The translations under genes and the position numbers were made by a program. From Alistipes indistinctus YIT 12060 (GTDB lineage: Bacteria > Bacteroidota > Bacteroidia > Bacteroidales > Rikenellaceae), in the NCBI RefSeq assembly GCF_025144995.1, contig NZ_CP102250.1, positions 2,728,001 to 2,792,000 of the forward strand: a DNA stretch of 64,000 bases, written 5' to 3'. The first letter of the stretch is position 1. Each line of letters starts with the position of its first letter. Positions 29,362 through 40,283 of this stretch are shown here, piece by piece. The notes under the pieces were generated by a model. It did not search any database. It was not told the DNA's origin and worked only from the letters and a program-made list of their open reading frames with translations.

Positions 29362-29393
29362 TTTGCTCTTTCTTTCTTTTTGTATTACTTTTG
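29362..29393 (+). promoter_or_regulatory. glpD promoter
   Basis: TTTG (29362-29365), 20 bases, then TACTTTTG (29386-29393): a full match to the Bacteroidota promoter consensus. Transcription should begin near 29400, which excludes the in-frame ATG at 29363 and supports the glpD start at 29450. Confidence 0.8.
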
Positions 29394-29427
29394 TTTCGTT
29401 TTTAATGGTTTTGGTGGTAAACGAAAC
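29393..29427 (+). promoter_or_regulatory. Candidate DeoR-family operator at glpD
   Basis: GTTTCGTTT (29393-29401) and its exact reverse complement AAACGAAAC (29419-29427) form an inverted repeat with a 17-base spacer. It overlaps the -7 box and the start of the transcript, an ideal place for repression. The same 9-base word recurs at the araM promoter (36247-36255), whose operon ends in a DeoR-type repressor gene. Confidence 0.55.
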
Positions 29428-29449
29428 TGGAAAAGCGAAAAATGATAAT

Positions 29450-31012
29450 ATGAAGAGGGAAGAGAGCCTGAAATTGCTGGCCGATGAAGGCCGGGTATGG
29501 GATATGGTAATCATCGGGGGCGGCGCCACCGGACTGGGGTGCGCGGTAGATGCGGTATTGCGCGGTTACAGCGTAGCGCTGTTCGAACAGGATGATTTCG
29601 CAAAGGGCACTTCGAGCCGGAGTACGAAACTGGTGCACGGAGGGGTGCGTTACCTGCAGCACGGCGATGTCGCATTGGTATTCGAAGCGCTGCGCGAACG
29701 GGGCCGCATGAAGGCCAATGCGCCGCACCTGGTCAAGGACCAGGCGTTCGTGATCTCGAACTACCGCTGGAGGGACAATTTTCTCTATTTCTGCGGGCTC
29801 GCTTTTTACGACCTGCTTTCGTTGGGTTTCGGTTATGGCCGTTCACGTTTCATTTCGGCCGCGAAGACGGCCCGTTGTCTGCCGGTGTCCGTCAAACGCG
29901 GATTGAAGGGCGGTATCGTTTATCACGACGGCCAGTTCGATGATTCGCGCATGGCCGTCAACCTGGCGCAGACCTGTGCCGAGCATGGCGGCTGCCTGTT
30001 GAATCATGCTCCTGTCGAAGAGATTATGCACGATGAAAAGGGGCGCGTTTGCGGTGTCCGGATGACCGACAGCGAGACCGGCCGCAGGTATAGGGTCCGT
30101 GCGAGATCCGTGGTCAATGCCGCCGGCGTCTTTGTCGACCGGGTGATGGCGATGGACCAGCCCGGCCATGCGCCGCTGGTGCGCCCGAGCCAAGGGGTTC
30201 ATCTGGTGCTCGACAAACGTTTTTTGCAGAGCGATTATGCGATTATGGTACCCAAAACCAGCGACGGCCGCGTGTTGTTCGCCGTACCGTGGCACGACAA
30301 GGTTGTAGTAGGTACGACCGATATTCTTCGCGAAACACCCGAAGAGGAACCCCGCCCATTGGAAGAGGAGATCGACTTTATCCTCGGCACGGCGGCCCTT
30401 TACATGGATCCGGCCCCGACGCGAGCCGATATTCTGTCGATGTTTGCGGGGCAGCGCCCGCTGGCGGCACCCAGTAGAGAGGGCAAAAGTACGAAAGAAC
30501 TTTCGCGCGGCCACAAAATCATCGTTTCGGATCACAGCCTGATTACCATTACCGGGGGCAAATGGACTTCCTACCGTAAGATGGCCGAGGATACGGTCGA
30601 CAAGGCCGGGGTGTTGGGGCTGTTGCCCCTGCGCAAATGTATGACCCGCCGTTTCCCGATTCACGGTTACCGCGAACACCCCGACCTGACGAACCATCTT
30701 TATGTCTATGGCTCCGATATGCCGGCGATTGCCGAATTGATGCGGCAGGGGTATGATACGAAACTGGTCGAAGGGCTCGATTACACCGAGGCCGAGGTCG
30801 TGTGGGCCGTTCGCGAGGAGATGGCCCGGACAGTCGAGGACGTGTTGGCCCGGCGGGTGCGAATCCTGTTCGTCGATGCGCGCCGTGCCGTGCAGGCCGC
30901 TCCGCGTGTGGCGCAACTGCTCGCTGCCGAACTGGGATACGACGAGGTGTGGGAACGCGCTCAGGTCGAGCAGTTCACTCGCCTTGCCGAACATTACTAC
31001 CCGTCGGTGTGA
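29450..31012 (+). CDS. glpD: FAD-dependent glycerol-3-phosphate dehydrogenase
   Basis: A 520-residue flavoprotein that oxidises sn-glycerol 3-phosphate to dihydroxyacetone phosphate and passes electrons to quinone at the membrane. The FAD-binding signature DMVIIGGGATGLGCAVDAVLRG is at about 18-39, followed by DDFAKGTSSRSTKLVHGGVRYL, the GlpD hallmark. VVNAAGVFVD and ITGGKWTSYRKMAEDTVD mark the second FAD contacts and the C-terminal region. The ATG at 29450 is chosen because it lies downstream of the promoter and 17 residues before the FAD fold. It stands alone on the plus strand, facing the araM operon, and probably shares its repressor. Confidence 0.94.
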   Translation: MKREESLKLLADEGRVWDMVIIGGGATGLGCAVDAVLRGYSVALFEQDDFAKGTSSRSTKLVHGGVRYLQHGDVALVFEALRERGRMKANAPHLVKDQAFVISNYRWRDNFLYFCGLAFYDLLSLGFGYGRSRFISAAKTARCLPVSVKRGLKGGIVYHDGQFDDSRMAVNLAQTCAEHGGCLLNHAPVEEIMHDEKGRVCGVRMTDSETGRRYRVRARSVVNAAGVFVDRVMAMDQPGHAPLVRPSQGVHLVLDKRFLQSDYAIMVPKTSDGRVLFAVPWHDKVVVGTTDILRETPEEEPRPLEEEIDFILGTAALYMDPAPTRADILSMFAGQRPLAAPSREGKSTKELSRGHKIIVSDHSLITITGGKWTSYRKMAEDTVDKAGVLGLLPLRKCMTRRFPIHGYREHPDLTNHLYVYGSDMPAIAELMRQGYDTKLVEGLDYTEAEVVWAVREEMARTVEDVLARRVRILFVDARRAVQAAPRVAQLLAAELGYDEVWERAQVEQFTRLAEHYYPSV

Positions 31013-31230: not shown

Positions 31231-32007
31231 TTATTCAGCGATGATGACTTCCACCCCCTGCTCTTCGAGCATGCGGACGGTCGAGGCGTGAATACCTCCG
31301 TCCGTAACTACCGTGTGGATTTGACTCAGCGGGCAGATGCGGCCGAAACCTTTGCGCGAAAATTTAGACGAATCGACCAGTACGATCGTTTTTGACGCCG
31401 CTTTCATCATTTCGCGGTTCAGCTGCGCTTCTTCCAAATTGGAATTGGTTACGCCGTATTCTTCGTTGATGCCGTCGGCGCCGATAAAGAGTTTCGAACA
31501 GGAGAACTCTTCCATCGAGATGAGCGGGGAGGTTCCGCGTACCGAGAGCGATTTTTTGTGTACGACACCTCCCAGCTGGATGATGTTGACGTTCCCGACG
31601 GCGGAGAGCAGCATCGACACCTTCAGCGACGGGGTTACGACGTTGAGCGTTCCTTTCGGGACGATCTTCTCGGCGAAGGCCATGATGGTCGAGCCGGTGG
31701 CGATGATTACCGAGTCGTTCTCCTCGAGCAGTTGCGTCGCGGCCTGAGCGATTTTCTCTTTTTGCACCCGGTTTTCGAGTTCTTTGAGCTGTACGCTCCG
31801 GTCCGCTACATGCGGATTGACAGGGCATGCGCTGCCGTGCGTGCGGAACAACAGTCCCTGTTCCTCGAGCGCCTTGAAGTCCTTGCGGACCGTCACGGCT
31901 GTTACCTTCAGGCTCTTGGCGATGTCGGCCACGCGGATGTAGCCGTCCTTTTTCAGCTTATCGAGGATGTATTTGTGCCGTTGGGCAATGCTGATAATCT
32001 GTGTCAT
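31231..32007 (-). CDS. DeoR-family transcriptional repressor (GlpR-like)
   Basis: A 258-residue regulator with the DeoR N-terminal winged helix-turn-helix (RHKYILDKLKKDGYIRVADIAKSLKVTAVTVRKDFKALEEQG, about residues 9-51). The C-terminal DeoRC sugar-phosphate sensor domain has VIIATGSTIMAFAEKI, LFIGADGIN and VLVDSSKFSRKGFGRI. Members bind phosphorylated sugars or polyols and release DNA. It is the last gene of the araM, transporter, phosphatase operon. The likely operators are the GTTTCGTTT words at 29393-29427 and 36243-36259. The effector is probably a glycerol phosphate, which is inference from the neighbours. The 218 bases between it and glpD hold no gene. Confidence 0.9.
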   Translation of the reverse strand: MTQIISIAQRHKYILDKLKKDGYIRVADIAKSLKVTAVTVRKDFKALEEQGLLFRTHGSACPVNPHVADRSVQLKELENRVQKEKIAQAATQLLEENDSVIIATGSTIMAFAEKIVPKGTLNVVTPSLKVSMLLSAVGNVNIIQLGGVVHKKSLSVRGTSPLISMEEFSCSKLFIGADGINEEYGVTNSNLEEAQLNREMMKAASKTIVLVDSSKFSRKGFGRICPLSQIHTVVTDGGIHASTVRMLEEQGVEVIIAE

Positions 32008-32166: not shown

Positions 32167-33045
32167 CTACGGACGGGACTGCCGTGCCTCTTCGAGCAGC
32201 TCCCCGAACTCTCTGAGCGTGCGTGCGGTCAGGTCGGGTCCGGGATCGGAGGCGAGGGCCGTTTCGAGTGTCGTCTCGCCCGAGAGTACCAGTACGCCGA
32301 GCGATCCGGCGTTGCGTGCCGTGGCTACGTCCGTGTAGATTCGGTCGCCCGCCATGGCGATTTCGGACGGTTGCAACCCGTAACGTGCGGCGATACCCGT
32401 GAGCATTCCCGGATCGGGTTTCCCCAGTACGACGTCCGGTTCCCGGCCGGTGGCGTACTCGATGCATTTGCAGATCGAGCCGCAATCGACCAGCACCTCT
32501 GCCCGGTCGGTGGGGCAGACGCGGTCGGGATTCGTCGCAACGTACGGAATGCCTTGTGCCGCGAGCCATGCCGCATGGCACAGGCGAGGGTAGGCGAGGG
32601 TCATGTCGAACGCCACTACCAGCATATCGGGTTTGTCTCCCTCCGTGGCGGGGGCGGACTCGAACCCGGCCGCTTCGAATTCCGCGATCATACTCGGCGT
32701 ACCGAGCAAAAAGAGCCGTTTGGCCTCGGGATGGTGCGTACGGATGTGGTCGATGGTGGCCAGTGCGGAGGTGTACATCCGTTCACGGGGCACCCCGATG
32801 CCCATCCCTTCCAGTTTGTGCAGGTAGTCGTCGATGTTTTTCGACGGGTTGTTCGTCAGGAACGAGTAACCGATTCCCAACGCGTCGAGTTTGGCGAGGA
32901 AGGCTTTGGTCCACGGGAAAAGTGTCGAGCCCATGTAGATCGTGCCGTCCATGTCGAGTGCGACGTGCCGGATCGCAGCGAGCCGGGTCATCAGTTCCTC
33001 GTGTGCCAGTGGAGAATAGCAGTCTGTGAAGGTGTTTTTATCCAT
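32167..33045 (-). CDS. HAD-IIA sugar-phosphate phosphatase (AraL/NagD-like)
   Basis: A 292-residue HAD phosphatase of subclass IIA. The nucleophile motif is LDMDGTIYMG (30-39, Asp31 and Asp33), motif II is FLTNNPSKN (62-70), a KPDPGM loop follows, and GDRIYTDVATA binds magnesium. The cap is the alpha/beta type of NagD and Bacillus AraL. These enzymes act on small phosphorylated sugars or glycerol phosphate. In Bacillus subtilis the related araL lies beside araM, as here with the AraM gene in the same operon. I infer that it controls the level of a phosphorylated intermediate, or dephosphorylates the incoming ester. It ends 159 bases before deoR. Confidence 0.88.
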   Translation of the reverse strand: MDKNTFTDCYSPLAHEELMTRLAAIRHVALDMDGTIYMGSTLFPWTKAFLAKLDALGIGYSFLTNNPSKNIDDYLHKLEGMGIGVPRERMYTSALATIDHIRTHHPEAKRLFLLGTPSMIAEFEAAGFESAPATEGDKPDMLVVAFDMTLAYPRLCHAAWLAAQGIPYVATNPDRVCPTDRAEVLVDCGSICKCIEYATGREPDVVLGKPDPGMLTGIAARYGLQPSEIAMAGDRIYTDVATARNAGSLGVLVLSGETTLETALASDPGPDLTARTLREFGELLEEARQSRP

Positions 33046-33106
33046 GGTTTGGTTGCGTTGTCGTGAAGCTTCCTGTATGCTTGCGTACTTTGCGTTTGTT
33101 GTCGGA

Positions 33107-34528
33107 TTACGAGTTGATCCGGGCGTATCCGTCCATCTTGGCGCGCCACATCAGCGAGAATACGAGCATACCCACCAACGCCATCGTGATCATTGTAATA
33201 TAGGCCCAGTTCCATCCGTAATGTTGTGCTACGTAGCCCAGGCCGGTACCGGAAACGATCGTGCTCGCATAACCGAACAGTCCTGTGAATCCGGTGGCCG
33301 TGGCGGCGTATTTTTTTGTCGCCTGGTTTGCGGCGGCGATGCCGATCAGCGCCTGCGGACCGTAGATGCAGAAGCCCGCGCCGCATAGCAGCAGGAAGGT
33401 GAGCCAGATCGGGGCACCCTGCGGCAGTTCCCAGAATCCGAAGATGAACAGTGCCGTCCCGGCCATACAGAAGACGCAGGTGCGGTGGGCGCGGCCTTTC
33501 AGGTAACGGTCGGTGGCCCAGCCCGCGAAGATCATACCGACGATTCCTGCGATCTCGAACAGGGCTACGAGCCATCCGGCCATCTCCAGCGAGATGCCCT
33601 TCGACTGTTTGAGCAGCGACGGTCCCCAGTCCAGTACTGAGAAGCGCACGATGTAGACGAAAAAGTTCGCGATCGAAAGGACCCAGATCAATGGATTGGC
33701 AAATACCATCCGGCGCAGCATGTGTTTCTCTTCGGCGCTCTTTTTACCCGGTTTCTCTTTTTTGATTTCGGTTCCGGGTAGTTCGGGCAGCCCCACCGAG
33801 CGCGGCGTATCGCGCAGCGTGATGAAAAGGCCGATCGCTCCCGCGAACGAGATCGCCGCCGGAATCCAGAAACACCATTTCCACGCTCCGACATGGTTGG
33901 GTCCGCTGCCCAGGGTGCCCATGATATAGCCGCAGAGGATGACCACTAGCCCGGCGCCTATCGAGTGCGAGGTGTTCCATACGGACATTTTGGTCGCCAG
34001 TTGTTTGGGCGGTATCCAGTGCGTCAGCAGCCGCGCGCACGGCGGGAACCCCATGCCTTGCAGCCAGCCGTTGGCGACCCACAGCAGCCCCATGAAGAGA
34101 ATCAGCGTGTTGGTGAATTGCGATCCGCCGGTTTCGCCCGTAATCCAGGTCGAGATATCTTCGCCGAATCCGAATGCAAAGTTCGCCAGCGCGCAGAGGG
34201 CCAGTCCGGAAGCCATGAAAAAGCGGGCGTTGACCCGGTCGGCCAGTACGCCGTTCAGGAAACGCGACAGGCCGTAAATCAGCCCGTGCAGCGTGAGGAA
34301 GATGCCTAGACTCGTTTTCGAGATGCCCAGATCGGTTTCCATGCCGGTCATTGCGAAAGAGAAGTTCTTACGTACGAAGTAGAAGAGCGCATAACCGACC
34401 ATCGTGGCGATGATCGTGCGGGTCTGCCAGTATTGAAAACGTTTACGCACTTCGGGGCTGAAGCCGTGCTCGTCCTGCAGATCGGCGGCAGCGGCGGTTT
34501 GTGCTGAGGCTTGTGTGTTATCGTTCAT
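33107..34528 (-). CDS. Organophosphate:phosphate antiporter (GlpT/UhpC-like, MFS)
   Basis: A 473-residue MFS transporter with about twelve spans. The N-terminal segment KRFQYWQTRTIIATMVGYALFYFVRKNFS is typical of the OPA subfamily, and LQGMGFPPCARLLTHW matches its conserved loop between spans. These proteins exchange glycerol 3-phosphate, hexose phosphates or phosphoglycerate for inorganic phosphate. Placed between araM and a HAD phosphatase, it probably imports a glycerol phosphate or glycerophospho-compound. A UhpC-like sensor role is unlikely since no histidine kinase partner is nearby. It follows araM after a 204-base spacer. Confidence 0.88.
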   Translation of the reverse strand: MNDNTQASAQTAAAADLQDEHGFSPEVRKRFQYWQTRTIIATMVGYALFYFVRKNFSFAMTGMETDLGISKTSLGIFLTLHGLIYGLSRFLNGVLADRVNARFFMASGLALCALANFAFGFGEDISTWITGETGGSQFTNTLILFMGLLWVANGWLQGMGFPPCARLLTHWIPPKQLATKMSVWNTSHSIGAGLVVILCGYIMGTLGSGPNHVGAWKWCFWIPAAISFAGAIGLFITLRDTPRSVGLPELPGTEIKKEKPGKKSAEEKHMLRRMVFANPLIWVLSIANFFVYIVRFSVLDWGPSLLKQSKGISLEMAGWLVALFEIAGIVGMIFAGWATDRYLKGRAHRTCVFCMAGTALFIFGFWELPQGAPIWLTFLLLCGAGFCIYGPQALIGIAAANQATKKYAATATGFTGLFGYASTIVSGTGLGYVAQHYGWNWAYITMITMALVGMLVFSLMWRAKMDGYARINS

Positions 34529-34732
34529 CGGTTCGGGTTGAAGTTTTGTCCGGTTTTGGTTAGCCGTTGGTTGTTGGGTTGTGCAATTTTTCGGTTTCGG
34601 CGAGTCGAGTGCGCCGGATGTTGCGGAACTCTGCGAGGTTATTTTGCCGCCGTGCGCCGGCTCGTTGTGCGGGGTATGGTACCCGGTGCAGGCGCGTTGG
34701 CTTTTGTAAGGCGGAATAGCTTGGTCTGGGGA

Positions 34733-36073
34733 TTATTTGATCTCCCAGACCCCGCCGGGGCCGAAAATCGCATCGGTCCATTGCCCGAGCAGGTTCGTCC
34801 GAACGGCTACGTCGAGGATGGTGAAACGCCGGCGGATATGCTGCGCACGGATTACGCTCTCTTTCATGCGCCGGCGTGTGATGCCGATCTCCTCGGGCCG
34901 GGTGGGGGCGCCCACGATCCGCAGCCGGCGGCTCGCCTCGGCAAACGGGATGATCTGCTTTTCGAGCCTTGCCTTGATTTGCGGCCAGTTATTTTTCAGC
35001 GTGGCCAGCTGTTCGCGCAGTTGTTGCTTGCCGATATATTTTGCGTGCGTCTCTTTCAGCCCGATTTCGGGGAAATCGGTGCCCGCATAGAGTTCCAGCG
35101 CATATTTTTCCGCTTCGGCCAATTCGGGCCATGCGGCGACGGCCCCTTCGATATCGAGGCGGGCGATGTCGCTGTGGAGGAATTGTTCGTAATAGGCGGT
35201 CGCGGCGAGCAATCCGATGCTGACTTGGAAACCGTGCGACGGGGTGTGCCCGTCAGCCATTTTATGGTGTTCCATGTTCCACAGATGGCTGAATTGGTGG
35301 TCGGCACCGCTGGCCGGTCGGCTCGTCTGGTGCGCCTGCATCGCGAAACCGCCCAGCATGAGCCCTTCGATCAGCGGCCCGATCGTTTCGACGGTACCCT
35401 GGCGCACCCCTTCCGGATCGCCGAGCGCATCCTGCAGTCCGTCCTGGACGATTGCGAAAGCGCGTTCGTCGAGCGGCTCCACGCCCAGTGCATCCGAAAT
35501 GATCCAGTCTGCACCCGCCGGGACTTTGGCGAACAGGTCGGCATAACCGCTGGCTGTCATCTCTTTCGGGGCTGCGGCGATTATCGCGGTATCGGCCAGT
35601 ACGCCCAACGGAGCGGGACACGAGAAGGTCTGCTTGGCCCCTTCGAAGGTGATCGACGCGCCGAACGACGTGTAGCCGTCCATCGAGGCGGCGGTGCCTA
35701 CGACCATGTAGCGGCGGCCGTTGCGGTGCGAGCAGAGTTTTACCAGGTCGTTGATCGTTCCCGATCCCACGGCTACGGGAATGGCATCGGTTCGTTGCAG
35801 TACGGCATCGAGTTCTTCGACGAATTCCCACTCGGCGTGTAGGTCCGGCGAGGTGAAAATATGCGGCTGGTCCTGTTCCACGCCTGCGGCCGCGAGACTG
35901 TCCCGTACATCGCTGCCCGCCACCCGCAGCGTCGTCGGGTCGGCTATGATGACGGCCCGTTTTCCGGGAAACAGTTCCCGGAACATATCGCCGGACTGGG
36001 GCAGGATGCCGGCCCCGATACGCAGCGCTTTGGTTTCCGTGGCGTGGGCCAGCGCGTTTTCTACTCGGTTCAT
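34733..36073 (-). CDS. araM: sn-glycerol-1-phosphate dehydrogenase (AraM/EgsA family)
   Basis: A 446-residue enzyme of the iron/zinc alcohol-dehydrogenase-like fold that includes archaeal G1P dehydrogenase and Bacillus AraM. It interconverts dihydroxyacetone phosphate and sn-glycerol 1-phosphate with NAD(P)H. The nucleotide loop is VAVGSGTINDLVK (100-112), followed by VVGTAASMDGYTSFGAS (124-140). Metal ligands are expected in GADHQFSHLWNMEHH and SHGFQVSIGLLA. Length is longer than the roughly 395 of B. subtilis AraM, with a C-terminal extension. It is first in its operon; a -7 box and operator-like repeats lie 163-186 bases upstream. It could make G1P, or oxidise imported G1P to feed glycolysis. 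Confidence 0.9.
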   Translation of the reverse strand: MNRVENALAHATETKALRIGAGILPQSGDMFRELFPGKRAVIIADPTTLRVAGSDVRDSLAAAGVEQDQPHIFTSPDLHAEWEFVEELDAVLQRTDAIPVAVGSGTINDLVKLCSHRNGRRYMVVGTAASMDGYTSFGASITFEGAKQTFSCPAPLGVLADTAIIAAAPKEMTASGYADLFAKVPAGADWIISDALGVEPLDERAFAIVQDGLQDALGDPEGVRQGTVETIGPLIEGLMLGGFAMQAHQTSRPASGADHQFSHLWNMEHHKMADGHTPSHGFQVSIGLLAATAYYEQFLHSDIARLDIEGAVAAWPELAEAEKYALELYAGTDFPEIGLKETHAKYIGKQQLREQLATLKNNWPQIKARLEKQIIPFAEASRRLRIVGAPTRPEEIGITRRRMKESVIRAQHIRRRFTILDVAVRTNLLGQWTDAIFGPGGVWEIK

Positions 36074-36235
36074 ATCGTTGTTTTTTGTGTTTGTTTGTCA
36101 GTTCGCCGGTCGGTCGTTGTCCCGCTGTTGTTGCCGGTCAGGGCTTTTTGCAGGAGTGTTGTGGCCGTTGCGGATGCCCGCGACGGTTTTTCCGGTCGGA
36201 TCGATGCGTCGGGAATTTCTTTTCCTTTCGGAAAG

Positions 36236-36259
36236 CAAAGATAACGAAACGAAACGAAA
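36236..36259 (-). promoter_or_regulatory. araM promoter -7 box with adjoining operator-like repeats
   Basis: On the minus strand TATCTTTG (36243-36236) matches TAnnTTTG exactly. Just upstream lies TTTCGTTTCGTTTCGTT (36259-36243), which contains GTTTCGTTT (36255-36247), the same word that is inverted at the glpD promoter. No clear TTG was found at the -33 position, which would fit an activator- or repressor-dominated promoter. The leader to araM is about 160 bases. Confidence 0.55.
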
Positions 36260-36309
36260 TATGCGAGAGGGCGGGCCAAAAAGAAAGATGGCGCAGCAAT
36301 CCTTCGTTT

Positions 36310-36343
36310 TTTGTGTGCAGCGCGGAAAAATTTCCTATATTTG
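36310..36343 (+). promoter_or_regulatory. Promoter of the cobalamin riboswitch-carboxylase transcript
   Basis: TTTG (36310-36313) and TATATTTG (36336-36343) match the Bacteroidota -33 and -7 elements, with a 22-base spacing that is one base above the usual range. Transcription would begin near 36350, directly before the riboswitch. It is divergent from the araM promoter 100 bases away. Confidence 0.65.
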
Positions 36344-36352
36344 CCCCGAATT

Positions 36353-36520
36353 GGTTTTCTCCGTCTCTCCCGGGACGGGGAATGAAGAGGGAATCGGGTG
36401 TGAATCCCGGACTGTCCCGCAGCTGTGATGCTCCGTAACGTCCTGAACGTCTTTACCACTGGCCGAATCCGGGCCGGGAAGGTATCGGGACGGGAGCGAG
36501 TCAGAAGACCTGCCGGTTCG
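36353..36520 (+). promoter_or_regulatory. Cobalamin (B12) riboswitch
   Basis: The conserved blocks of the adenosylcobalamin/AqCbl aptamer occur in order: GGGAATCGGGTGTGAATCCC (36389-36408), CTGTCCCGCAGCTGTGA (the B12 box core, 36412-36428), ACCACTGGCC (36455-36464), CCGGGAAGGT (36474-36483) and GAGTCAGAAGACCTGCC (36498-36514). Ligand binding normally lowers expression of the downstream gene. The first gene downstream is a biotin carboxylase subunit at 36684, not a cobalamin transport or synthesis gene. Confidence 0.92.
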
Positions 36521-36521
36521 T

Positions 36522-36580
36522 TTTACGTTTTGGCGCCTCGTGGGTTAGGTGCTTTGACGCCCGTAAAGTATGCGATTTTT
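36522..36580 (+). terminator. Hairpin expression platform after the riboswitch
   Basis: TTTACG (36522-36527) pairs with CGTAAA (36562-36567), and within it GGCG (36532-36535) pairs with CGCC (36558-36561), with a possible inner stem. The sequence then runs to ATTTTTATAG (36575-36584). This could act as a B12-controlled terminator. The rest of the leader to 36683 shows no further structure I can support. Confidence 0.45.
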
Positions 36581-36683: not shown

Positions 36684-38210
36684 ATGATCAGGAAGATATT
36701 GGTTGCCAATCGCGGGGAGATCGCTCTGCGGGTGATGCGTTCCTGCCGGGAAATGGGGATCGTTTCCGTAGCGGTCTTTTCCGAGGCGGACCGGGCTTCG
36801 CGGCATGTTTTCTATGCCGATGAGGCTTATTGTATAGGGGGCGCCGCTTCGCAGGAGAGCTACCTGAACGGGGACCGGATTCTGGAGGTGGCCCGCGGAT
36901 GCGGTGCCGACGCGATCCATCCCGGTTACGGTTTTTTGTCCGAAAACGCCTCTTTCGCCCGCAAGTGCGGTGAAGCGGGAATAATTTTTATCGGCCCCGC
37001 GGCCGAAACGATCGAGTTGATGGGCGATAAGATTTCGGCGCGCCGCACGATGATCGAAGCCGGGGTTCCCGTAGTGCCCGGCACGCAGCAAAATCTTGTG
37101 TCGGCTGACGAGGCCGTCGAGGTGTGCCGCCGGATCGGTTTTCCGGTGATGCTGAAGGCGTCGCAGGGCGGAGGCGGAAAGGGTATGCGGCTGGTGAGGC
37201 GGGAAGCGGACGTGCGCGAAGCTTTTGAGGCTGCCCGTTCCGAGGCGATGGCTTCGTTCGGCGACGATACCGTCTACATCGAACGGTTTGTCGAAGAGCC
37301 GCACCACATCGAATTCCAGGTGTTGGGAGACCGGTTCGGTCGTGTGATCCACTTGTGCGAGCGGGAGTGCTCCGTGCAGCGCCGCCACCAGAAAATCATC
37401 GAAGAGAGTCCTTCGCCCCTGATGACTGCGGAGCTGCGGGAGCGTATGGGGCGTGATGCCGTTGCTGCGGCCCGTGCGGTCGGTTATCTCGGAGCCGGAA
37501 CGGTCGAATTCCTGGTGGACCGGGAGCGCAATTACTATTTCCTCGAGATGAACACGCGCCTGCAGGTCGAGCATCCGATCACCGAAGAGGTGTGCGGGGT
37601 CGATCTGGTCAAGGAGCAGATTTTTGTCGCCGACGGGAGGCCTTTGCGCCTTACCCAGCGCGATATTGTCCAGCGGGGCCACGCCATCGAGTGCCGGATT
37701 TGTGCCGAAGATGCCTCGGCGGGTTTTATGCCTTCTCCGGGGGTGATTTCCCAACTGACCGAACCGGGCGGGATCGGAGTCCGCCTTGACAGCTATATCT
37801 ATGAGAAGTATGAGATTCCGGTGCATTACGATCCGATGATCGGCAAGCTGATCGTTTGGGCCACGACGCGTGAATTTGCGGTCGAACGGATGCGGCGGGC
37901 GCTGGATGAATACAAAATTACCGGTGTCAAAACCAACATTGCCTACCTGGGATCGATACTGGAACTTCCCGAGCTGGTCGGAGGGGATTACAATACGTCC
38001 GTGCTGGAAAAGAATGCCGACTGGCTCGCTTTGCAACAGGAGAGAGGAGATAGGGAAGAGATTGAGAATATGGCCATGATTACTGCTCTTATCAATTACA
38101 TGGTCTCACTGGAGGAGGGTGGCGCCGGATCGCCTGCCGGCGCCGCCCTTTCCGGTTTTACGAGCCGTTGGCGCGAATTCGGCAAACGCAACGGCGTCAA
38201 GGGCATTTAA
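36684..38210 (+). CDS. Biotin carboxylase subunit of an acyl-CoA carboxylase
   Basis: A 508-residue ATP-grasp enzyme that carboxylates biotin on the carrier protein using bicarbonate and ATP. Typical features are RKILVANRGEIALRVMRSCREMGI (3-26), HPGYGFLSENASFA, the ATP loop MLKASQGGGGKGMRLV, and FLEMNTRLQVEHPITEEV containing the metal-binding Glu and the catalytic region. Length is close to PccA/AccC subunits without a fused carrier domain. It opens a three-gene operon with the carrier (12 bases later) and carboxyltransferase. The substrate is probably propionyl-CoA, given the carboxyltransferase type and the B12 riboswitch, but acetyl-CoA cannot be excluded. Confidence 0.93.
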   Translation: MIRKILVANRGEIALRVMRSCREMGIVSVAVFSEADRASRHVFYADEAYCIGGAASQESYLNGDRILEVARGCGADAIHPGYGFLSENASFARKCGEAGIIFIGPAAETIELMGDKISARRTMIEAGVPVVPGTQQNLVSADEAVEVCRRIGFPVMLKASQGGGGKGMRLVRREADVREAFEAARSEAMASFGDDTVYIERFVEEPHHIEFQVLGDRFGRVIHLCERECSVQRRHQKIIEESPSPLMTAELRERMGRDAVAAARAVGYLGAGTVEFLVDRERNYYFLEMNTRLQVEHPITEEVCGVDLVKEQIFVADGRPLRLTQRDIVQRGHAIECRICAEDASAGFMPSPGVISQLTEPGGIGVRLDSYIYEKYEIPVHYDPMIGKLIVWATTREFAVERMRRALDEYKITGVKTNIAYLGSILELPELVGGDYNTSVLEKNADWLALQQERGDREEIENMAMITALINYMVSLEEGGAGSPAGAALSGFTSRWREFGKRNGVKGI

Positions 38211-38221
38211 AAGCAAGCGTT

Positions 38222-38758
38222 ATGGAGATAGAAATAGGAAACAGGAAAGCCGAAGTCGAATGGCTCGGCAAAAACGGGAACGATGTCCAGGTGTCGATAG
38301 ACGGCCGGACGATCGGGGCGAATGTCGTGTTGACCGACAACGGTATCTGTTCGATCCTCTATCAGGGACGTTCGTACAATATGGAGGCGGTGAGTTTCGA
38401 AGGGGGCAGGCGTTATAAGGTCAAGTGCGGCTACGACTCGTACGATGTCCGGGTCATCGATGCGCAGGCGCGTTATCAGCAGGCGCGCAACGGCGGGGAA
38501 GCCAGGCAGGACGACAACCTGAGCGCGCCGATGCCGGGCAAGGTGGTGCGCGTGATGGTGCAGCCTGGTGACCGGGTTGCGGCCGGCGATACGCTCCTTG
38601 TTTTCGAGGCGATGAAAATGCAGAGCAACCTGAAAGTGACCGGGGATTGCACCGTCCGCGAGATACTTGTGGCCGAGGGCGAAACGGTCGCCGGAGGGGC
38701 GCTGTTGGTCAAACTGGATGTTTTGCAAAACGAATCGGATAACCATGGAAAAGAATAA
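38222..38758 (+). CDS. Biotin carboxyl carrier protein subunit
   Basis: A 178-residue carrier. The C-terminal biotinyl domain begins near LSAPMPGKVVRVMVQPGDRV and carries the biotinylation site FEAMKMQ, with lysine between the two methionines. The N-terminal 80 residues form a beta-rich region (MEIEIGNRKAEVEWLG, DNGICSILYQGRSY) like that of Bacteroidota methylmalonyl-/propionyl-CoA carboxylase carriers. I use the ATG at 38222, 11 bases after the carboxylase stop; an upstream in-frame start lies inside that gene. Its end overlaps the carboxyltransferase gene by 14 bases, coupling translation of the two subunits. Confidence 0.93.
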   Translation: MEIEIGNRKAEVEWLGKNGNDVQVSIDGRTIGANVVLTDNGICSILYQGRSYNMEAVSFEGGRRYKVKCGYDSYDVRVIDAQARYQQARNGGEARQDDNLSAPMPGKVVRVMVQPGDRVAAGDTLLVFEAMKMQSNLKVTGDCTVREILVAEGETVAGGALLVKLDVLQNESDNHGKE

Positions 38759-40283
38759 CGAACGGATATATCAGGAATTTGAACGCCGTAACCGCCAGGC
38801 GGAACTTGGCGGCGGCGAGGACAAGCTGCGCAAGCGGCATGAAGCAGGCCGGATGACAGCGCGCGAGCGGATTGAAATGTTGCTGGATAAGGGGACGTTT
38901 GTCGAATTGGATAAATTCGTCACGCACCGTTGTACCAATTACGGCATGGACCGGCAGAAAATTCCCGGCGACGGGATCGTGTCGGGCTACGGTAAAATCG
39001 ACGGTCGTCAGGTATTCGTCTATGCCTATGATTTTACGGTGTTCGGCGGTTCGCTCAGCATTACGAACGCCAGCAAGATCGTCAAGGTGCAGACGATGGC
39101 GCTGAAAAATGGCGCGCCCGTCATCGCGCTGAACGACTCGGGCGGAGCCCGCATCCAGGAAGGAGTTGAGAGCCTGACCGGCTATTCGAACATCTTTTTC
39201 CAAAACACGATCGCTTCGGGTGTGGTGCCGCAGTTCTCGGCCATTCTCGGGCCGTGCGCGGGCGGTGCGTGCTACTCGCCGGCGCTTACCGATTTTATCT
39301 TTATGGTCCGGGACAAAAGCCATATGTTCGTGACCGGGCCCGACGTGGTGAAGGCCGTGACGCACGAAGAGGTGGATAAGGAGGAGCTGGGCGGGGCTTA
39401 TACCCACAGCAGCCGCAGCGGAGTGGCCCATTTTATGGGAGAGAGCGAGGAAGAGGTGCTGATGGGTATCCGGGAGTTGTTGAGTTTTCTGCCGTCCAAT
39501 AACCTCGAGGACGCCCCGGTCGTACACACGACGGATGATATCCGCCGCGAGGACGAACGGCTGCAAACGCTGATCCCGGCCGATCCCAATGTGCCGTATG
39601 ACGTGAAGGAGGTGATCGGATCGGTGGTCGACGACCACTACTTTCTGGAAGTGATGCCCCATTTTGCCAAAAATGTCGTGATCGGATTCGCCCGCCTGGG
39701 AGGGCGTTCGGTGGGCATCGTGGCGAACCAGCCCGCATTTCTGGCGGGAGTACTCGACATCGACGCTTCGGATAAGGCAGCCCGGTTTATCCGTTTCTGC
39801 GACTGTTTCAATATTCCCCTTATTACGCTCGAGGATGTGCCCGGTTTCCTGCCGGGGACGACTCAGGAGCACGGAGGCATTATCCGGCACGGGGCCAAAA
39901 TCGTTTACGCCTATGTCGAGGCTACTGTTCCCAAGATCACGCTGATTTTGCGCAAGGCTTACGGAGGTGCTTATATCGTCATGTCGAGCAAACAGACGGG
40001 ATCGGACGTGAACCTGGCCTATCCGACCGCTGAGATTGCCGTAATGGGTGCCGAAGGGGCTGTGAATATTTTGTGCCGCGGTGCGGGGAAAGAACAGCGG
40101 CGCGAGGCGGTCGAGGAGTATGAGGAGCGTTTTGCCAATCCCTACCGCGCGGCTGAACTGGGCTATATCGACGAGATCATTCTGCCGAAGCAGACCCGTT
40201 TCAAATTGATTCAGGCACTCGAGATGGCCCATAACAAAATCCGGAGCAATCCACCCAAGAAGCACGGTAATATGCCTTTGTAA
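38745..40283 (+). CDS. Carboxyltransferase subunit, propionyl-/methylmalonyl-CoA type
   Basis: A 512-residue crotonase-fold carboxyltransferase of the PccB/MmdA kind. N-terminal marks are KRHEAGRMTARERIEMLLD and FTVFGGSLS. The acyl-CoA and carboxybiotin sites lie around LNDSGGARIQEGVESLTGY, LGPCAGGACYSPALTDF, PGFLPGTTQEHGGIIRHGAK and LRKAYGGAYIVMSSK. Length matches PccB and MmdA. With an ATP-dependent biotin carboxylase in the same operon, it is a propionyl-CoA carboxylase-like enzyme rather than a sodium-pumping decarboxylase. In propionate-forming Bacteroidales such an enzyme could run next to B12-dependent methylmalonyl-CoA mutase. The ATG at 38745 fits the family N-terminus. Confidence 0.93.
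   Translation: MEKNNERIYQEFERRNRQAELGGGEDKLRKRHEAGRMTARERIEMLLDKGTFVELDKFVTHRCTNYGMDRQKIPGDGIVSGYGKIDGRQVFVYAYDFTVFGGSLSITNASKIVKVQTMALKNGAPVIALNDSGGARIQEGVESLTGYSNIFFQNTIASGVVPQFSAILGPCAGGACYSPALTDFIFMVRDKSHMFVTGPDVVKAVTHEEVDKEELGGAYTHSSRSGVAHFMGESEEEVLMGIRELLSFLPSNNLEDAPVVHTTDDIRREDERLQTLIPADPNVPYDVKEVIGSVVDDHYFLEVMPHFAKNVVIGFARLGGRSVGIVANQPAFLAGVLDIDASDKAARFIRFCDCFNIPLITLEDVPGFLPGTTQEHGGIIRHGAKIVYAYVEATVPKITLILRKAYGGAYIVMSSKQTGSDVNLAYPTAEIAVMGAEGAVNILCRGAGKEQRREAVEEYEERFANPYRAAELGYIDEIILPKQTRFKLIQALEMAHNKIRSNPPKKHGNMPL

Follow-up and report, generated by a model that had tools for sequence, protein, structure and literature searches.

The glp regulon of Escherichia coli combines a secreted diesterase (GlpQ), an OPA-family antiporter (GlpT), a membrane dehydrogenase for sn-glycerol 3-phosphate (G3P; GlpD), and a DeoR-family repressor (GlpR). 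Bacillus subtilis carries AraM (EgsA), a Ni-dependent dehydrogenase of the opposite enantiomer, sn-glycerol 1-phosphate (G1P), which works with PcrB in making a lipid and whose operon also holds araL, a HAD-IIA phosphatase gene. In marine Phaeobacter, GpxB and UgpB, ABC systems reported mainly from Proteobacteria, import G1P as well as G3P as a carbon source (PMC12718374). The locus described here lies in a 64,000-nucleotide stretch (hereafter, the window) of the genome of Alistipes indistinctus YIT 12060, a member of the Bacteroidales, and encodes an AraM-type G1P dehydrogenase (G1PDH), an OPA-family transporter, a HAD-IIA phosphatase, a DeoR-family regulator, and GlpD. The set follows the same logic as the glp regulon but adds the G1PDH, which would make the second enantiomer usable, and the phosphatase, whereas glycerol kinase (GlpK) is absent. 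The dehydrogenase shares the fold and family of B. subtilis AraM and is about 50 residues longer, yet its gene keeps company with a transporter and a DeoR regulator, and in relatives with GlpD and a secreted glycerophosphodiester phosphodiesterase (GDPD), in a genome without PcrB. Unlike GpxB and UgpB, the window type joins an OPA-type antiporter to an AraM-type dehydrogenase.

We propose, with a probability of roughly 70%, that this cluster serves the catabolic salvage of glycerol phosphate and can use both enantiomers. The starting material would be gut glycerophosphodiesters, such as lipoteichoic acid (LTA) chains, deacylated phosphatidylglycerol or cardiolipin, and phosphoglycerol-decorated glycans. 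A secreted GDPD, encoded elsewhere in the window genome and within the cluster in relatives, or a secreted metallophosphoesterase would cut these compounds outside the cytoplasm, and the OPA transporter would bring glycerol phosphate in and let phosphate out. GlpD would then oxidize G3P and the AraM-type enzyme G1P, both yielding dihydroxyacetone phosphate (DHAP) for glycolysis. The HAD phosphatase probably clears phosphorylated intermediates that are toxic or in excess, and the DeoR protein is the likely repressor of the cluster. LTA is built of G1P units and phosphatidylglycerol retains a G1P head group (PMC7086022); marine bacteria grow on G1P, with transporters that do not discriminate between the enantiomers (PMC12718374). 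The sequence-only reading had predicted G1P use and left scavenging and synthesis side by side. G1P use is well supported, as a prediction, by the AraM-like sequence and fold and by a gene company typical of glycerol-phosphate metabolism, and of the two options scavenging gains from the linked uptake and breakdown genes, whereas synthesis loses with the absence of PcrB.

The AraM-type dehydrogenase and its partners

Families were assigned with hidden Markov models (HMMs; Pfam and NCBIfam) and sequence matches in the PDB, and the HMMs confirmed the family of every gene that had been named beforehand (dehydrogenase, phosphatase, OPA transporter, DeoR, and GlpD). The dehydrogenase reached 134.5 bits against PF13685 (Fe-ADH_2; gathering score 28), and its best PDB sequence matches are G1P dehydrogenases. 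Its AlphaFold model (mean pLDDT 93) has B. subtilis AraM (9h4x) as its top structural match, with a Z score of 42.1 over 375 residues at 27% identity, and Foldseek also ranks this structure first. It is followed by 3ce9 (Z 38.9), a Clostridium enzyme annotated as a glycerol dehydrogenase, and by 5fb3 (35.7) and 4rgq (35.4), archaeal G1PDHs scoring about 35, while typical glycerol dehydrogenases score 32.6 and below. The residues D179, H263, and H280, which we take to be the metal ligands by analogy with glycerol dehydrogenase, are invariant in 63 sequences, as are H259 and the NAD(P) glycine motif G103/G105/D109. Judged by sequence and modeled fold, the dehydrogenase is AraM-like, and a preference for G1P is inferred from its family membership.

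The transporter scored 323 bits against TIGR00881, 304 against glpT, and 159 against uhpT, and its best PDB match is E. coli GlpT (1pw4). Because 304 bits lies below the curated GlpT equivalog cut-off (TIGR00712, 632.55 bits), we call it OPA-family and GlpT-like rather than GlpT. The residues R53, H188, and R295, equivalent to GlpT R45, H165, and R269, are invariant in 38 homologues and agree with those characteristic of the OPA family; we assume that they act as the phosphate-binding Arg pair (R53 and R295) and the histidine of transmembrane helix 5 (H188). The protein is predicted to import glycerol phosphates. The phosphatase belongs to HAD-IIA (119.6 bits against TIGR01460, cut-off 100.15), with the motifs DxDGT at residue 31, TNN at 64, GKPDP at 208, and GDR at 233; its PDB matches are of the NagD type, the nearest solved structure being TM1742 (1vjr), together with archaeal phosphatases. 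In B. subtilis, AraL acts as a sugar phosphatase of low specificity, weak on sugar phosphates and inactive on G3P (PMC3207120), so the name AraL predicts no substrate for the HAD-IIA protein. An AraL-AraM pair had been proposed at this locus; both types of protein are indeed encoded, with the transporter gene lying between them and the phosphatase identified to the level of HAD-IIA.

Targeted searches of the complete window genome (2.86 Mb) place these genes in context. The G1PDH/OPA/HAD/DeoR set occurs there in a single copy, such that the recurrence ascribed to it holds across genomes and not within this one, and the cluster member is the only OPA transporter. One GDPD with a signal-peptide-like start is encoded outside the cluster. 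No PcrB match was found in this genome, although control genomes gave matches, and no glycerol kinase scored over the cut-off; of the two FGGY kinases, one is closest to XylB and the other to RhaB, and they lie beside apparent xylose and rhamnose isomerase genes. GpsA is present, so lipid G3P can come from this enzyme, and with GlpK absent, imported G3P is the obvious substrate of GlpD. Glycerol kinase is missing from all four genomes in which GlpD is linked to the cluster (the window genome, G006, G278, and G088), compared with 3 of the 13 others searched (Fisher exact p ~0.015, a hand calculation uncorrected for kinship or missing contigs). This suggests that GlpD in the linked genomes probably serves imported G3P.

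Gene company in relatives

The comparison covered 295 genomes sampled from the order, 200 from the family, and 395 from the phylum, along with named Bacteroidales metagenome-assembled genomes. G1PDH was present in 8 of the 295 order genomes, two of these being distant short-form matches, and the long form in 60 of the 200 family genomes; in the phylum sample, only the window genome carried the gene. The named metagenome-assembled genomes contributed 57 G1PDH loci, mostly from gut and rumen. Within 4.5 kb of 102 long-form loci (G1PDH loci of either form carry L numbers below), the neighbors included the OPA transporter in 39, the HAD phosphatase in 23, GDPD in 22, and DeoR in 16. The association of OPA transporter and G1PDH is well above chance, because the only OPA transporter of the genome adjoins G1PDH in all three same-genus genomes that carry long-form G1PDH and were searched for OPA.

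The same parts are rebuilt around G1PDH in different orders. At L074, DeoR is followed by GlpD-GDPD-G1PDH-OPA-HAD in one run, and at L075 and L076 GlpD is divergent from DeoR-G1PDH-OPA-HAD. DeoR is itself divergent from GDPD-G1PDH-OPA-HAD at L078 and from G1PDH-OPA-HAD at L093 and L094, both of the window's genus, while L077 holds GDPD-G1PDH-HAD. Five loci (L101, L102, L103, L108, and L111) show G1PDH-OPA-DeoR with GDPD-HAD divergent, L109, L110, and one L127 copy show G1PDH-OPA-GDPD, and the HAD phosphatase directly adjoins G1PDH in some relatives (e.g., L106, L107, and L023). The cluster-linked GDPDs belong to PF03009 and have signal-peptide-like N termini. A calcineurin-like phosphoesterase, likewise secreted, occupies the GDPD position between G1PDH and HAD at L100 and L104, and L105 has a matching gap there. 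Such rebuilding of the set, often with a secreted GDPD or phosphoesterase added, argues for catabolism over synthesis. In the G1PDH tree, which has a very long branch to two short forms and an unsure root, the window enzyme falls in a 34-row clade (SH-aLRT 100), 27 rows of which have company of the OPA/GDPD/HAD/DeoR type.

Several further arrangements were observed. The metallophosphoesterases adjoining G1PDH (L100:8947-10143, L104:6304-7482, and L010:5744-7522) are secreted and resemble purple acid phosphatases and 5'-nucleotidases. In one large subclade, the long-form G1PDH gene is followed after 7-10 bases by a gene for a standalone, 133-residue phosphoenolpyruvate (PEP)-utilizer mobile (phosphohistidine swivel) domain, PF00391, seen at L014:9336-9734 and at about 23 loci like it; in some cases (L041, L043, and L044) a secreted GDPD is encoded between the two. 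Several genomes of genus g204 in the window's family (e.g., L116/L117 and L118/L119) encode two long-form paralogues, one often with OPA/GDPD neighbors and the other lacking them and ~39-47% identical to the window G1PDH.

Layout of the locus

The features of the locus are collected in Table 1. Positions 32167-36073 span exactly the phosphatase, transporter, and dehydrogenase genes, with DeoR and GlpD just outside. Transcription of the minus-strand genes would run from G1PDH through the OPA transporter and HAD-IIA to DeoR, and the gaps of ~204, 61, and 159 bases make a single operon of four genes plausible. GlpD reads convergently toward this cluster from a first plausible ATG at 29450 and has its own promoter-like TTTG-N20-TACTTTTG upstream, as read from the sequence. 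A search for an operator common to the GlpD and G1PDH upstream regions returned nothing beyond poly-pyrimidine similarity. On the other side of the cluster, a cobalamin riboswitch (RF00174, 109 bits) at 36335-36531 on the plus strand precedes an operon at 36684-40283 that encodes biotin carboxylase, biotin carboxyl carrier, and carboxyltransferase components and resembles propionyl-CoA carboxylase.

Table 1. Features of the predicted glycerol-phosphate locus, in window positions
Feature	Positions	Strand	Basis
GlpD-type FAD glycerol-3-phosphate dehydrogenase	29363-31012 as listed	plus	DAO + DAO_C
DeoR-family transcriptional regulator	31231-32007	minus	PF08220 (HTH_DeoR) + PF00455 (DeoRC)
HAD-IIA (NagD/AraL-type) phosphatase, 292 residues	32167-33045	minus	TIGR01460
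OPA-family (GlpT/UhpC-like) organophosphate transporter, 473 residues	33107-34528	minus	TIGR00881, GlpT, MFS_1
AraM-type (long-form, 446 aa) sn-glycerol-1-phosphate dehydrogenase (G1PDH)	34733-36073	minus	PF13685, fold
Putative operon promoter upstream of G1PDH gene	36160-36260, approximate bounds	minus	Bacteroidota-type -7-like TATCTTTG, read from sequence

Alternative uses and biological meaning

Several observations weigh against salvage of both enantiomers. None of the scored neighbors was present at 31 of the 102 long-form loci, some of which lie on short contigs, and about 23 long-form loci have the PEP-mobile-domain protein instead of the usual company. Independent-pairs tests of OPA against GDPD, HAD, and DeoR, made on small samples, did not reach significance, and the window cluster itself lacks a phosphodiesterase. 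The dehydrogenase scored 163.7 bits against the NCBIfam archaeal EgsA equivalog NF002022, below its cut-off of 413, and is for this reason filed as AraM-type (PF13685/cd08549) rather than as EgsA. The position of GlpT K80 is R89 in the window transporter, with Lys in 17 homologues and Arg in 20; since about half of the transporters carry Arg here, their substrate may differ from G3P.

In one rival explanation, dehydrogenase, phosphatase, and transporter are tuned to a different phosphorylated import, such as the phosphate of a polyol or sugar, and not to G1P. OPA transporters and HAD-IIA phosphatases form broad families, the transporter lies under the curated GlpT cut-off, and AraL, the B. subtilis phosphatase, is weak on sugar phosphates and inactive on G3P (PMC3207120). 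However, the best sequence and fold matches of the dehydrogenase are G1PDHs, and glycerol phosphate is also what the GDPD and GlpD genes linked to the set suggest, which leaves this explanation unlikely.

In a biosynthetic role, the dehydrogenase would convert DHAP to G1P as a precursor of an ether lipid, of a heterochiral phospholipid, or of a surface glycan, and its neighbors would be incidental. Such a role has precedents: AraM and PcrB give rise to heptaprenylglyceryl phosphate in B. subtilis, and G1P is accepted by PlsY/PlsC (PMC13400652). Within the order, moreover, two short-form G1PDHs adjoin nucleotidyltransferase and glycerophosphotransferase genes. At L080, a CTP_transf_like cytidylyltransferase directly precedes the short-form gene and a CDP-glycerol glycerophosphotransferase follows it, and at L079 the short form is accompanied by a nucleotidyltransferase, a HAD protein, a flippase-like protein, and a CDP-glycerol glycerophosphotransferase. 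Both are surface-glycan clusters in genomes that also encode PcrB, and this suggests that biosynthetic use of G1P probably exists in Bacteroidales, via a distant enzyme with other neighbors. The short forms share superfamily PF13685 with the window enzyme but have 328-349 aa, are ~28-30% identical to it over ~210 residues, branch far from it, and keep biosynthetic company. The window type, by contrast, has a transporter, phosphodiesterase, phosphatase, and GlpD as neighbors in place of prenyl or nucleotidyl transferases. A PcrB-like prenyltransferase, which had been suggested as a sign of synthesis, is absent from the window genome and did not exceed the cut-off in any of 19 further family members with long-form G1PDH; it was found in one of the five closest relatives from other parts of the order. 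Seven order genomes were searched, three of which had PcrB over the cut-off, and two of these three carry short-form G1PDH. We consider a biosynthetic role quite improbable for the window cluster. Ether-lipid synthesis was rejected on the absence of PcrB over the cut-off save in those three order genomes, and glycan synthesis, an idea of the sequence-only reading that probably does apply in the order, was rejected for the window type because glycan company was seen only with short-form G1PDH. The two short-form clusters (L080:7297-10131 and L079:6800-11780) may themselves specify a G1P-based, mirror-image teichoic-like polymer.

Methanogens live in the same gut habitat as these bacteria. Although G1P recycling from archaea motivated the marine study (PMC12718374), scavenging specifically from gut archaeal membrane lipids, as first suggested for this locus, is very unlikely and found nothing in its support: around the loci examined, no gene for ether cleavage or specific to archaeal lipids was recognized, the enzymes linked to G1PDH are glycerophosphodiesterases, and bacterial G1P material includes LTA and phosphatidylglycerol (PMC7086022). 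LTA and phosphatidylglycerol head groups are the likelier G1P sources because the linked GDPDs fit them, whereas releasing G1P from archaeal lipids would require the ether bonds to be broken as well.

Marine Phaeobacter is already known to take up G1P and to grow on it (PMC12718374), and AraM is a known G1PDH of bacteria. In one survey, Fibrobacteres and Cloacimonetes were the only FCB-group members reported to have G1PDH orthologues (PMC6431249). We found no description of the OPA/AraM/GDPD/HAD set in Bacteroidales in the open-access full-text literature, where absence is no proof, and the Bacteroidales form of G1P salvage appears to be undescribed. Beyond the window, we lean cautiously toward the view that many gut and rumen Bacteroidales run such a "both hands" salvage of glycerophosphodiesters, in which G1PDH would work in reverse as a nutrient enzyme on the G1P of LTA and phosphatidylglycerol. 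Bacterial G1PDH genes are usually taken as a sign of archaeal-type lipids and have been drawn into the debate over the lipid divide. If the enzyme is catabolic, as its company suggests, this would caution against inferring ether-lipid potential from G1PDH alone, and gut Bacteroidales would gain a testable route for feeding on LTA and the head groups of phospholipids.

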